A stretch of 62,202 nucleotides of DNA from Roseburia sp. Lineage in GTDB: Bacteria; Bacillota; Clostridia; Lachnospirales; Lachnospiraceae. Shown here piece after piece: positions 39,853 to 44,423 of the stretch. The notes below the pieces were generated by a model. That model saw only the letters and a list, made by a program, of their open reading frames with translations, was not told the DNA's origin and made no database searches. How positions within the stretch are numbered: position 1 is the stretch's first letter; the number at the start of each line of letters is the position of its first letter. The stretch is taken from NCBI GenBank assembly GCA_022771695.1, contig JALEKJ010000047.1, positions 1 to 62,202 on the forward strand, in the 5' to 3' direction. A program made the position numbers and the translations under genes.

Positions 39853-39942
39853 ACAAATTCCATGCCTTTCCGATATCTGCAATCTTTGGGTCGCAGACAC
39901 AAAGTTGCGTGTGAAAAATCTTTCATATAAGGATTTTTCACA

Positions 39943-40194
39943 CTACGCTCCTACATTGGAATAGACCGTCTTTGCGGTAATCCCGTCTAATCTGCCGATT
40001 TTTCCGGAAAGTGCATTGATAGCATCCTGTGGTGCATCGATGGCAACACTGATGATATTCACATCCTTTTCCCGGTAAGGGATACCCATTCTCCCGACAA
40101 TATAACTGCTGTACTCGTGCAACAGATGATTGAGCTGTTCGATGGAGTCCATGTTTTCTACGATAATTCCAATCAGTGCAATTCTTGTATTCAT
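39943..40194 (-). CDS. TM1266-family iron-only hydrogenase system regulator
   Basis: An 83-residue ACT-like protein (NTRIALIGIIVEN at the start, followed by the YSSYIVGRMGIPYRE region and ISVAIDAPQDAINALSGKIGRL). Members of this family are found with hydrogenase maturation genes and are thought to be regulators related to the NikR C-terminal or ACT fold. ATG 40194 follows AAAGGA and matches the family length; an upstream start would add 14 residues. It is the first gene of the hyd operon, behind a leader with a promoter and a terminator. Confidence 0.9.
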   Translation of the reverse strand: MNTRIALIGIIVENMDSIEQLNHLLHEYSSYIVGRMGIPYREKDVNIISVAIDAPQDAINALSGKIGRLDGITAKTVYSNVGA

Positions 40195-40290
40195 ATGTTT
40201 CGTCCTTTCTTTGAAAAAATTGCGCTTCGCACGCAAAAAAGCTGCATCCGGACATCTCTATCCAAATACAGCCTTCTAAATTCATACGTC

Positions 40291-40324
40291 AAAAAACTGC
40301 TCTGCCCTTTTCCCGTGGCAGAAC
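40291..40324 (-). terminator. Intrinsic terminator inside the hyd operon leader (attenuator)
   Basis: On the minus strand GTTCTGCC and GGCAGAGC pair over 8 bp around a 10-base loop, followed by AG and six T. It lies about 100 bases before the first start codon and about 120 after the promoter at 40451-40479. Early termination must be overcome for hyd expression. Confidence 0.65.
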
Positions 40325-40444
40325 GCGCGCATATGCCTCTATGATGTGCCATATCTTTCATTCAGGATAACCTTTATGTCAGATGCCCTTTTTTCTAACG
40401 TCTCACCCACAAGAACGCATCTCGTGGGCAAGTCTGTTTCACTT
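40325..40444 (-). promoter_or_regulatory. Structured 5' leader of the hyd operon, candidate riboswitch or attenuator
   Basis: From the predicted start near 40444 the leader holds CCCACGAGATGCGTTCTTGTGGG (a hairpin with CCCACGAG/CTTGTGGG arms) and further GC-rich arms such as GGGCATC and GATATGGCAC before the terminator. I compared it by eye with the TPP, SAM, FMN, THF, fluoride, glycine, ZTP, purine and c-di-GMP cores and recognise none. No reading frame of note is present. A ligand or protein-sensing leader is an inference. Confidence 0.45.
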
Positions 40445-40450
40445 TTTATA

Positions 40451-40479
40451 ATTCTATCATGGATTCTTGATACCGGCAA
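40451..40479 (-). promoter_or_regulatory. Promoter of the hyd maturation operon
   Basis: TTGCCG and TAGAAT are 17 bases apart on the minus strand, 8 bases beyond the stop codon of the NYN gene. It gives a leader of about 250 bases before the TM1266-type gene. Confidence 0.65.
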
Positions 40480-40486
40480 CTGCTTT

Positions 40487-41056
40487 CTATCTTTCGCACA
40501 TTACATATTCACTTGCATGAATCAAAGTCACATTATCAACATTTGCAGATAATTCCTGAGCATTTCCTTTTGCTGATTCAAATAAAACAATTTCTATATT
40601 ACATCCTAAATTTTTAATTATTTTGGCTACTCCAACAAAATCTGCATCTCTGGAAATTAAAACAGCTAAATCATACGATTTTGCATATGCATGTTTTAAC
40701 ATTTCCACAGCAATATTTACATCTGTACCTTTATCTGTCTGAGTAACAATATGTCCAGTTACAGGCTTGCCACAATTATCACAAGTCAAACCATGCTTTG
40801 CCTCTATCTTTATCGTTTTATCTTGTAGTCTACCAGTAACAACCTGGCAATAGGGTAACTTATTAATCTGTTGCAAAAATCCTTTATTATTATCCGTTTC
40901 ACTTGTAAAATAATATGTACGAATAAAATCAACACTAGGGAACTTTCCTTTTACTACATTAATATATTTTTCAATATCCATTTGCCTGCCAGGATTTGCC
41001 TTACCCCAATCAAAGAATACATTGCTTCCATCAATAAAAATCATGCCTTTCTTCAT
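40487..41056 (-). CDS. NYN-domain (LabA/DUF88-like) predicted nuclease
   Basis: A 189-residue protein with a PIN-like NYN fold. The acidic active-site set is visible: Asp9 in FIDGSN, Asp112 in KGTDVNIAVEML, and Asp137/Asp139 in SRDADF. An insert with Cys92 and Cys95 (CDNCGKPVTGH) may bind zinc. NYN proteins of this type are metal-dependent ribonucleases or regulators. ATG 41056 follows AGGAGG; an upstream start at 41119 would place a hairpin in the coding region. It is last in a three-gene operon. The operon is AT-richer than its neighbours, which suggests transfer. The biological role is unknown. Confidence 0.85.
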   Translation of the reverse strand: MKKGMIFIDGSNVFFDWGKANPGRQMDIEKYINVVKGKFPSVDFIRTYYFTSETDNNKGFLQQINKLPYCQVVTGRLQDKTIKIEAKHGLTCDNCGKPVTGHIVTQTDKGTDVNIAVEMLKHAYAKSYDLAVLISRDADFVGVAKIIKNLGCNIEIVLFESAKGNAQELSANVDNVTLIHASEYVMCER

Positions 41057-41071
41057 TTGTAGTATCCTCCT

Positions 41072-41105
41072 AAAAAATTTAACCCATCGTATAAAAACGA
41101 TGGGT
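41072..41105 (-). terminator. Attenuator-like hairpin before the NYN gene
   Basis: ACCCATCGT and ACGATGGGT (41082-41105) form a perfect 9-bp stem with a six-base loop. On the minus strand it is followed by TAAATTTTTT and then directly by the AGGAGG of the NYN gene. It has the form of an intrinsic terminator and would lower NYN expression relative to the two upstream genes. Confidence 0.6.
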
Positions 41106-41133
41106 GGTGTTATTTTCATGGTTGCCCATGGAT

Positions 41134-41307
41134 TTAATTTATCTTGATTATATCATAGAAATCTGAAAAATCAAGTTTTTTCTTCATTATGGGGTGTGTA
41201 AATTTATCTCCTGATTTAATGAAATAGACTTCACCTATTGCAAAATCTGTCATCGAAGAAGCAGATGCTTTCATCTTAAGATGACCATTATCGAAAATAA
41301 GTTTCAT
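41134..41307 (-). CDS. Small protein of unknown function (57 residues)
   Basis: A short frame starting MKLIFDNGHLKMKAS and ending YDIIKIN, with GGAAGG 6 bases before its ATG. It lies 20 bp after the nucleotidyltransferase gene stop and 77 bp before the NYN start, so it is probably co-transcribed with both. It has no membrane segment and no cysteine; charge is close to neutral with a basic middle (MKKKLDF). I recognise no family. Its position between two enzymes resembles an antitoxin, adaptor or ligand-binding partner, but that is only inference. Confidence 0.6.
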   Translation of the reverse strand: MKLIFDNGHLKMKASASSMTDFAIGEVYFIKSGDKFTHPIMKKKLDFSDFYDIIKIN

Positions 41308-41327
41308 AAACTATCCTTCCAGAATAG

Positions 41328-41990
41328 TCAACTAAATGCCCCATTCATCTTATTGTATACCTCGTTTATAGATTCTATGTAGCAAATAAACGAAGGATGA
41401 CCATCAACGTCTTGACGAGACAAATACATATTTTTCTTTGTTAAGTAAGCCGCCATAACTTCTTGCCAGTATTGCTGATTAGTTTTCAAAAATTCTTCCT
41501 TTTTCTGAATATCCTTTGATTTTGGTCCTTGATTCCAATAATATTGATCAAAGCACATATTCCCTGTTTTTCTATGGATTAATCGATGCCAATTTCCAAA
41601 ACTATCAATTTTAATAATGCATATATCAATGCTAAACGGCGTTTTATTTCCCTGTGTCAAAGCATGTTTTTCTGTTGTGATAGCAGATGTCGAATCCTCA
41701 CAATCTCCCCAATCATTCCAATTAAGGACCTCATTAAATGCTTTGATTACATTTTGCTTAATTGACCTAGCATCATTAATATTTGGTGCCTTAAATATGT
41801 AAAGATTAAAATCATAATCAATCGGTTCTTTCTCGTTCTGGGTTACAAGCCCGCGCTTTTTACTGCCTACAACCGACATTTTTGATTCGATACCATATTT
41901 CTTTAGTCGCTGAACCAACTGATTCACCAAATCAGCACAAATACTATAGGATTCTTTCAGAAATACTTTATCAGTAACATAATGATACAT
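41328..41990 (-). CDS. Nucleotidyltransferase-fold protein (polymerase-beta superfamily)
   Basis: A 220-residue protein with the nucleotidyltransferase active-site pattern: Gly42-Ser43 in VVGSKKRG, then Asp58 and Asp60 in IDYDFNLYI, and a third acidic residue, Asp122, in FSIDICIIKI. The spacing fits CD-NTases, MNT toxins/antitoxins and tRNA nucleotidyltransferases. It is too short for a full CD-NTase with a large helical lobe, though the C-terminal 90 residues are helical. It is first in the operon with the 57-residue protein and the NYN nuclease, behind a consensus promoter. AAGGAGG precedes the ATG. Product and target are unknown. Confidence 0.75.
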   Translation of the reverse strand: MYHYVTDKVFLKESYSICADLVNQLVQRLKKYGIESKMSVVGSKKRGLVTQNEKEPIDYDFNLYIFKAPNINDARSIKQNVIKAFNEVLNWNDWGDCEDSTSAITTEKHALTQGNKTPFSIDICIIKIDSFGNWHRLIHRKTGNMCFDQYYWNQGPKSKDIQKKEEFLKTNQQYWQEVMAAYLTKKNMYLSRQDVDGHPSFICYIESINEVYNKMNGAFS

Positions 41991-42046
41991 AGTATCCTCC
42001 TTTCAAATCCCTAACCGACCAGATGGCTTTATCGCCAAATCATTAG

Positions 42047-42075
42047 ATAATACCAAGAAATTAGCGTATTGTCAA
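42047..42075 (-). promoter_or_regulatory. Consensus promoter of the nucleotidyltransferase-NYN operon
   Basis: TTGACA and TATTAT are 17 bases apart on the minus strand. The leader of about 50 bases contains a small TGGC-GATAAA-GCCA hairpin before AAGGAGG. Near-consensus elements suggest constitutive expression. Confidence 0.82.
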
Positions 42076-42113
42076 TCATTTTCCGCGAAAACTCATAATG
42101 TAGAAAATGGAAT

Positions 42114-44423
42114 TTACCACCATCTCCCAAAATAGGAAAGCCGCAGTCTCATGAAATAGTAATCTGCCCGCCTATGACTCTTTACCCACTGCATGCAAGT
42201 AACACGTTCCCCACTTACCTCCTGCAGCATGGCAGGCGTTATCTCTTTCCCTCCATAAAGCACTTCCTCATAGACAGTCAAAAACGCAAACGTACAATCG
42301 GTTTCTTCCATCAGTTTCTCCTGCGCTCTGCTCTTAAATTCCTGAATCGTCTCCGCATCCTTTCGCGTCAATCCCAGACGGCTTAACACCCACAGGTTCT
42401 TTCGGATTTCCACAAAAAACTGTTCGTCCGCCTGCATATGCGCATACCGATAATGCTTCATGATGTTATCTAGCAGAAAAATCAAAAGAAACGCTAACAG
42501 CGTACCGCAAATTCCCCATAGAATGACATGTCTTTGTCCGAACGTATCTACTGCCGCTTCCTCTTCTATCTCAATCTCCGCTTCCTGTACCACCGGCGTA
42601 TCCTCCTCATCCGCCATAAGCGGCTCGCTGCTCTGCGCCTCGGATTGCCCTTTTACCTCCCACGGTGTATAGCGAATCTCTTCGTACCCCGGTGTCGGTT
42701 CAAATGGAATCCATCCCACTCCATCAATGTAGACTTCCGGCCATGCATGTGCCATATTGGAATACACGGTCATATACTTTTCTTCATTGACCGGCACACA
42801 GAACCCTTCCACATATCTGGCCGGAATTCCTTCTGCTCTTGCCAGCAGTACAAATGCCGTTGCAAAATAGCTGCAATACCCCTGCCTGCTCTCCAGCAAA
42901 AAATAGTCCAGATAACTGTTCTCATCCACAACCCGCTCGGGCAGTTTTCCCGGTCGCTTGGTATAGGTATAGGAAGACAATTCTGCCTCGATTGCCCGCA
43001 GCTTCTCTATATCCGTATCCGCCTCTGCCGTAATCTCATCCAAATAAGCTTCCACTTCCTTGGAAAGTGCCGGCATGTTTGCATAATTCTCATAAATATA
43101 TGCCCTATGATTCTCCAAATCCTCTAACGTGGCATAATCCGACGCATCCATCGGCGTATGTCTTCGAACCAGCGTATTCCACAGCGTCTCATCCGGCTCT
43201 GTGTGCGCCTCCAGCATCTCGTAAAAAACTGGGTGATCCACATTCATCTGATAGTACGTGGTTGTATATTCTGTTCCGTATCCCTGCTGTTTGCCAAACA
43301 CAAGATTCGGACCGTCCGATATACAATCGTATCCCTTAACCTCCCACGTTTTCAACGGAGAAAATACATATCCCGTATCCAGATATTGATAGCACACACG
43401 AAGCTTGGTTCCATACACATAGTCTCTCGTTGCCTCCCCATTATAACGCTCTACGGCATACAAGGTCTCCATGGTATCCAAAAAGCGATCCTGTGTATCA
43501 CCGGCTGCTGTCTGTATCCATCCACGCCCATCAAACGTATCATATATCTTTCCGGACAGGTAGATGTTAGTCACAAGACCACCTTTTCCGTTTATCTCAA
43601 GCAATACACGGTTATCCTCAATAAAACCGGCACCAAGCGTGCCATCTTCCGAGAATCCGCTGACCGCCAGACCAAAATCCTCTTTTTCCCCTCTGGTGAG
43701 GTTCCGGTAACACACAATCGCAGTCTCTCTAATCTGTTGATACGCCTCCTTGACAAAAGTCCAGTCAAACGGCTTTTCCGGAGCAGGCATGATGCATGAA
43801 AGCAAAAAGTAAGTCACACAAAACGGCATTAACCATAGCATATAGCTTTTATTGTCATGCCGCTGTACTTTTTTCCACTTTTCCTGCGTTGTCTCTATGT
43901 ATATAAGGAGCAGGTACCATCCAATGCATACCACTCCGATATGGCTGATTGGCTCCCTGCGAACCAGACAGATAATGAGCGCCAGCCCCATCACGCACGC
44001 AGATACCTTTTTCATGACAGGGAAATGTTCTGCCAGACACCAAAACAGATAGCATCCAAGTGCCAGATATACAGACTGCACACATCCATACCATACAAGC
44101 CAGTCCTCATCCCATCCTGTCCCATAAAAAAGCCAGTCCGTATAGGATGACCAAAACGCTGCCATCCGGCTGTTATCCACAAGCAAAAACACTACTGCCA
44201 AACAGCCCACCAAGGCAACCACACACAGAATGCGTCCTCTGATATTGGTAAAGCTAAACCCACAAAAAAAACCTGTCAGAGCAAAGGCTATCAGAATCTG
44301 CCATATCGACACCTCATAAATGCCAAACAGCTTCCCTGCACCAAAGATGCACACACAGATAAGAAGAAGCACATAAAGTAACCGATATAGTAACTGATAG
44401 CGGATGTCTTTCTCATTCTTCAT
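42114..44423 (-). CDS. TgpA-like membrane transglutaminase-core protein
   Basis: A 769-residue protein. Six or so membrane segments lie in the first 210 residues. An external transglutaminase-like core follows, with Cys517 in QGYCSYFATAF and His559 in MAHAWPEVYIDGVGW; the acidic partner follows about eight residues later. Another membrane helix near residue 650 and a cytoplasmic tail of about 100 residues end the protein. Such proteins occur with MoxR and DUF58 proteins and probably act on cell-surface peptides or proteins. ATG 44423 is preferred over GTG 44426 on ribosome-site spacing. Its start overlaps the DUF58 stop. Confidence 0.88.
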   Translation of the reverse strand: MKNEKDIRYQLLYRLLYVLLLICVCIFGAGKLFGIYEVSIWQILIAFALTGFFCGFSFTNIRGRILCVVALVGCLAVVFLLVDNSRMAAFWSSYTDWLFYGTGWDEDWLVWYGCVQSVYLALGCYLFWCLAEHFPVMKKVSACVMGLALIICLVRREPISHIGVVCIGWYLLLIYIETTQEKWKKVQRHDNKSYMLWLMPFCVTYFLLSCIMPAPEKPFDWTFVKEAYQQIRETAIVCYRNLTRGEKEDFGLAVSGFSEDGTLGAGFIEDNRVLLEINGKGGLVTNIYLSGKIYDTFDGRGWIQTAAGDTQDRFLDTMETLYAVERYNGEATRDYVYGTKLRVCYQYLDTGYVFSPLKTWEVKGYDCISDGPNLVFGKQQGYGTEYTTTYYQMNVDHPVFYEMLEAHTEPDETLWNTLVRRHTPMDASDYATLEDLENHRAYIYENYANMPALSKEVEAYLDEITAEADTDIEKLRAIEAELSSYTYTKRPGKLPERVVDENSYLDYFLLESRQGYCSYFATAFVLLARAEGIPARYVEGFCVPVNEEKYMTVYSNMAHAWPEVYIDGVGWIPFEPTPGYEEIRYTPWEVKGQSEAQSSEPLMADEEDTPVVQEAEIEIEEEAAVDTFGQRHVILWGICGTLLAFLLIFLLDNIMKHYRYAHMQADEQFFVEIRKNLWVLSRLGLTRKDAETIQEFKSRAQEKLMEETDCTFAFLTVYEEVLYGGKEITPAMLQEVSGERVTCMQWVKSHRRADYYFMRLRLSYFGRWW

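Follow-up and report, generated by a model that had tools for sequence, protein, structure and literature searches.

Organization of the locus

The DNA considered here is contig JALEKJ010000047.1 of a Roseburia sp. assembly (GCA_022771695.1; class Clostridia, family Lachnospiraceae), and the whole of its 62,202 nucleotides is referred to as the window. The subject is an open reading frame (ORF) of 220 codons on the minus strand (41990-41328) for a nucleotidyltransferase, hereafter NT, with a predicted fold of the cGAS/DncV-like nucleotidyltransferase (CD-NTase) and cGAS kind, together with a conserved RNA leader element of approximately 40 nucleotides that precedes it (42046-42007, minus strand). 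As a preliminary description of this DNA had stated, NT is the first of three adjacent ORFs on the minus strand, and is followed by an ORF of 57 codons (41307-41134), which is a candidate gene only, and by one for a NYN-domain protein (41056-40487) of 189 residues, counted from the start codon with an AGGAGG site. NT and the 57-codon ORF each have one copy in an own-genome search.

Upstream of NT, a promoter scan identified the sequence TTGACA-17-TATTAT, with a TG before the -10 box, at 42075-42047 on the minus strand (11 of 12 matches). The stretch from 40487 to 42075 was also correctly described as richer in AT than its surroundings, its GC content of 32.7% being the lowest among 607 sliding windows of the same size (mean 45.0%, standard deviation 2.7%). 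No convincing repeats were found at the junctions of this stretch. The stretch may have been gained, although an empty-site comparison gave no support for this, the relatives found for the flanking transglutaminase-like protein being too remote.

The nucleotidyltransferase and its relatives

The residues G42, S43, D58, D60 and D122, already singled out in the preliminary description, are invariant in 20 of 20 NT relatives, and provide the GS and the three acidic residues of a Pol-beta-type nucleotidyltransferase core. The AlphaFold model of NT has a predicted local distance difference test (pLDDT) score of 88, and all 46 Foldseek matches at E <= 0.001 are cGAS or the CD-NTases of cyclic-oligonucleotide-based antiphage signalling systems (CBASS). 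The fold is accordingly predicted, from the model, to be nearest to those of CD-NTases and cGAS, and NT is filed here with the CD-NTase/cGAS kind of enzyme and not with CBASS. By protein search, 17 of 397 family genomes contain NT relatives (19 matches), one of the 17 being the own genome, and a search of plasmids returned no NT match. The relatives appear to constitute an unannotated protein family common to phages and gut bacteria.

A structured leader at the predicted 5' end of the NT message

In the aligned upstream DNA of NT relatives, an element that is absent from the preliminary description is found right behind the -10 box. Its aligned pattern is (T/C)GAT, followed by a hairpin and by an unpaired tail, UGG-N(1-2)-GG-N(2-4)-GGG; a loose version of the tail pattern fits 32 of 34 leader copies, and the tail is kept across NT proteins of about 22% identity. 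The copy in the window, placed by a covariance model of the leader (termed R1), by covariation and by spacing, has a predicted transcription start at approximately 42040, hairpin arms TGGC (42037-42034) and GCCA (42027-42024), and a tail made up of UGG (42021-42019), GG (42016-42015) and GGG (42011-42009). In its own genome this copy scores 41.4 bits with R1 (E 2.8e-6), the next best match being 20.1 bits. Rfam has no match up to E 1 in the region 39900-42400, and when 17 loci were scanned up to E 10, no Rfam match overlapped the leader.

The arms of the stem change together among the leader copies compared, G-U pairs included. In an alignment of 19 sequences, both-side changes occur in six of seven pairs, and 88.9% of cells pair, as opposed to 29.8-48.4% when slid by 1-3 columns. 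The corresponding values for 34 copies are 88.2% and 32.1-48.2%, from an alignment that was fitted to the R1 model and with shuffles that ignore relatedness. The hairpin loop varies in length (4-12 nucleotides) and in sequence, which gives no sign of a pseudoknot between loop and tail. The gap between the -10 box and GAT is exactly 5 nucleotides in 31 of 34 copies, and the predicted start is therefore at or next to the A of GAT, with the hairpin predicted to lie at the 5' end of the mRNA. The hairpin is 13-30 nucleotides ahead of the start codon. Leader copies elsewhere have a homologous promoter at the same place, and these promoters are near consensus overall, with several scoring 12 of 12.

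Two other accounts of the element were considered and set aside. A coding extension of the NT amino terminus is rejected: modulo 3, the element-to-start distances of 31 copies fall into every class (13, 13 and 5 copies), and a stop codon in the NT frame lies within the tail in 9 of them, the copy in the window included. Start-site slippage on the T run is disfavoured because three copies (L027, L028 and L033) keep their pairing despite a broken T run.

Linkage of the leader to NT

Linkage is evident in both directions. Starting from protein searches, the leader precedes NT relatives at 32 of 36 loci, comprising 19 of 19 loci in the family, loci L002 and L004, eight of nine viral contigs, one of two phage records, and two of four class genomes (L003, which is the family locus of genome G344, coincides with L023). 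Starting from the RNA, a scan of 394 family genomes with R1 at E <= 0.01 gave 21 matches. Of these, 19 precede NT, another precedes the remnant of an NT gene (G285), and one was counted as spurious, the latter a match of 27.3 bits in G125 that falls inside a 667-residue ORF reading, by eye, like a topoisomerase. In 291 class genomes, R1 gave three matches, all ahead of NT. Fifteen copies lie outside the R1 training set, namely the second copy in G182, L003, L075, the phage record L078, the seven viral loci L079-L085, L087, L096, L097 and L103, and some of these are near duplicates of training rows. In addition, a DNA-pattern scan of viral sequences found NT downstream of the leader pattern in three of six contigs (L103, L104 and L107). 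Of these, L107 is the contig that also holds L080, and the NT proteins of L103 and L104 are identical in the residues compared. The remaining three matches are due to chance, and lie inside a related phage coding gene.

Individual loci display a variety of arrangements. The NT gene of G285 (L075:1808-3437) has an intact leader but is disrupted some ten codons into the reading frame. G182 has a second NT copy (L025:10923-11609) with one internal stop and a leader of its own, about 2 kb from the intact NT on the same contig. In phage NatCom_17901 (L077:4964-5581), the NT relative is part of a phage operon and is without its own promoter or leader, making it a natural RNA-less NT. A distant and likewise leaderless relative (L099:918-2115) overlaps an unrecognised gene of 196 codons that has no PADLOC match, an arrangement that resembles enzyme-partner pairs.

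Mobile settings and genomic company

Several of the NT cassettes are found among phage genes. For instance, the gene immediately upstream of NT is TerL in L080 and L026 and TerS in L087, while in L085 TerL and one further gene are upstream, and a gene for a ParB-like protein/DNA methyltransferase is downstream of NT in L085, L087, L081 and L103. In a tree of 33 rows, the 10 viral rows need nine label changes, eight of them forced by starred branches, and phage and chromosomal NT copies therefore interleave. The IMG/VR contigs among these are predictions, possibly integrated. The near-consensus promoters would fit expression of NT outside the phage lytic programme.

The neighbours of NT relatives, as read by eye, vary between loci. 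In the case of L036, the relative is beside Gabija (PADLOC; GajA E 8.1e-200, GajB E 2.6e-241), and in L096 it is beside a retron-type reverse transcriptase (RT) of the RT-Toprim_I-C type (PADLOC, E 2e-180). In L075, the broken NT copy is followed by AbiEi (PADLOC, E 6e-72), plus a gene of 268 codons. No enrichment is claimed, because the 10 neighbour proteins were picked by eye. At another locus (L082:6714-8096), and in the same arrangement in L083, a gene of 460 codons with a weak match to HEC-07 (E 1.3e-6) is directly downstream of NT.

A proposed role for the leader and NT

The preferred reading, held with slightly less than even confidence, is that NT would be a mobile, RNA-controlled, cGAS-like enzyme for defence or phage competition, with a 5' leader that binds NT and controls its making or activity. 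What was computed directly underlies this reading: NT has the catalytic residues and the fold prediction described above, the leader covaries, is linked to NT and keeps a constant position after a strong promoter, and cassettes occur in mobile settings. Here, the leader at the predicted mRNA start would bind NT itself, and so gate its making or activity. The cassette would travel with phages and further mobile elements, and NT would be an accessory (moron) gene that is expressed while the cassette is integrated. An incoming phage that upsets transcription, translation or RNA decay might then cause the leader to stop restraining NT, and the released enzyme could make a nucleotide signal or nucleotidylate cellular RNA, whereby infection would be stopped. 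A narrower and doubtful proposal is a one-gene RNA-gated cGAS, where the 5' end of its own mRNA would be the dedicated RNA ligand of NT, creating a self-contained, phage-carried sensor against rival phages that operates with no CBASS operon.

A number of observations weigh against the preferred reading. The tie of NT to CD-NTases by sequence profile is weak, as PADLOC Cyclase models match at most three of 20 NT relatives (best E 1.5e-5), NT has no match to any Pfam family, and a PDB profile search with NT gave no CD-NTase match. Net charge ranges from -9 to +19 across the NT relatives, and so there is no general basic, RNA-binding character in the family; a basic RNA-binding surface, sought through net charge, gave no signal. 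The window copy of the leader forms only four of the six modelled pairs, and the leader is absent at four of the 36 NT relatives (L077, L086, L098 and L099), L086 being a poor partial NT match. As for the linkage itself, 17 of the 19 family R1 matches belonged to the training set of the model, and near-duplicate leader copies occur (L027/L078, L039/L087 and L082/L083/L084). Finally, the defence neighbours were chosen by eye, with three of ten giving clear matches at neighbouring loci, and without an enrichment control.

The leader may alternatively be a general expression device that is independent of NT, with a 5' hairpin protecting the mRNA end and a strong ribosome-binding region, in which case NT would be an ordinary mobile accessory enzyme. 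Hairpins at the 5' terminus stabilise mRNAs in Bacillota, and the position of the leader hairpin, at the predicted 5' end and a short distance before the start codon, is in keeping with such a function. A general device is nonetheless expected before other genes, and away from NT genes R1 gave just a single weak match in 394 genomes; nor would it need conserved unpaired letters such as the tail retained among highly divergent NT proteins. This explanation is regarded as unlikely. It is quite unlikely that the leader is a small riboswitch whose ligand, a metabolite or nucleotide and perhaps what NT itself makes, feeds back on NT translation. The size of the leader, its position before the ribosome-binding site and its conserved single-stranded letters do fit a small cis-regulatory RNA, but no Rfam family overlaps the leader, the variable loop forms no evident pseudoknot with the tail, and only one hairpin is supported. 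It is also conceivable, and highly improbable, that the palindrome works not as RNA but as DNA, being an operator that a repressor reads where transcription starts. The palindrome is exactly at the predicted start and at a fixed spacing to the -10 box, as an operator might be, yet the spacing of its arms varies from 4 to 12 nucleotides, the arms co-vary with G-U pairs, and there is no palindrome in the conserved tail.

The preliminary description had viewed the three ORFs as one operon under a single promoter, with a toxin-antitoxin, defence or RNA-repair role. The genes are indeed adjacent, on the same strand, and all AT-rich. The trio does not recur, an outcome that the preliminary description itself had named as refuting: no NYN homologue was found at E <= 0.001 in any of the 16 other NT-positive genomes, and at 20 loci the DNA flanking NT relatives (as much as 10 kb per side, less at contig ends) contains neither NYN nor a homologue of the 57-residue protein, the sole exception being a chance match of 28 residues at E 0.8. 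Conversely, a NYN relative of 63% identity (L089) stands without NT. The promoter at 42075-42047 is real as a sequence match, but that it drives all three genes is questioned by a promoter-like site and a terminator-like hairpin that precede NYN. A three-gene enzyme-nuclease system is thus unsupported, since NYN and the 57-residue protein do not co-occur with NT; it is largely refuted, and barely tenable as an explanation. On sequence evidence, the 57-codon ORF and NYN are neighbours of NT, not partners. A defence-type role is plausible for each enzyme gene individually, considering the NT fold, the match of NYN to HEC-09, and the location of some relatives near Gabija, RT or AbiEi.

Comparison with known systems

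The CBASS CD-NTases (CdnB, CdnG and DncV) and cGAS share with NT the predicted fold and the catalytic GS...DxD...D arrangement. NT differs in its length, approximately 220 residues versus roughly 270-390 for the solved CD-NTase/cGAS chains among the Foldseek matches, in its weak or missing sequence-profile match, and in having its own linked RNA leader. The analogy to CBASS drawn in the preliminary description thus holds for the predicted fold but not for the operon, as no CBASS effector adjoins NT in the window; the 57-residue protein has no PADLOC match, and NYN matches only HEC-09 and NYN models. The same description had compared the locus with MNT-HEPN toxin-antitoxins, with which it shares the pairing of a small nucleotidyltransferase and a possible nuclease. 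Here, however, the neighbour is NYN and not HEPN, and does not co-occur with NT, and no HEPN partner was found at the locus.

The mode of activation is known for only a few bacterial cGAS-like enzymes. The staphylococcal CdnE03 is reported to be activated by a phage RNA, cabRNA, which derives from terminase genes (PMC10686824). This provides a precedent for an RNA ligand of an enzyme with the CD-NTase fold, and NT is similar in that such a fold is tied to a structured RNA and some NT cassettes adjoin terminase genes. The difference is that cabRNA is a trans-acting product of the phage that attacks, whereas the short RNA of NT is in the 5' end of its own mRNA, and its binding by NT is only proposed. 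A literature search that had bioRxiv and most subscription journals outside its scope found no such pairing of an RNA with NT. The locus contributes an undescribed structured RNA along with the NT protein family, and the combination of a compact cGAS-fold enzyme with a genetically tied, covarying 5' RNA makes the hypothesis of RNA control directly testable with two short constructs. If true, an RNA-gated one-gene cGAS would represent a new class of RNA-plus-CD-NTase immunity.

The neighbouring ORFs

The 57-residue protein has no match in Pfam, PADLOC or NCBIfam up to E 10; its own genome yields only itself, and its best phage match is at E 0.9. Between this ORF and NYN, a terminator-like hairpin (41105-41082, minus strand), followed by TAAATTTTTT, is immediately 5' of the NYN ribosome-binding site, and a promoter-like site, TTGATT-16-TATAAT with a TG, is found at 41174-41147 on the same strand. 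The latter is only suggestive because the scan-wide count of promoters, nine, is close to the 9.6 expected in shuffles. Terminator-like sites number four, against 0.7 expected.

The NYN protein matches PF01936 (E 4.6e-19, 69.8 bits, with a gathering cut-off of 24.2), and has the residues D9, D112, D137 and D139 and the CxxC insert (CDNC at 92) previously attributed to it. It also matches HEC-09, a PADLOC model for a candidate defence gene that is unrelated to NT, over nearly full length (E 1.9e-17; residues 1-180 of the protein against positions 1-175 of the 203 in the model). HECs are single-gene candidates from guilt-by-embedding, some with tested activity (PMC12988326), and HEC-09 is listed in one Pseudomonas study among systems correlated with phage susceptibility (PMC12447246). 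No experimental test of HEC-09 was found in the literature searched. NYN matches occur in nine of 299 family genomes and, besides the own genome, are near full length only in G185 (63%) and G155 (29%). NYN is likely a second, independent cassette of the HEC-09 type. Inspection by eye of the 63% relative in L089 shows that it has a TATAAT of its own and that the hairpin ahead of its ribosome-binding site is a different one. NYN may thus be another gene with a structured leader: in both L089:6640-7233 (minus strand) and the window (41082-41105), two cases only, hairpins of differing sequence are positioned just before the NYN ribosome-binding site.
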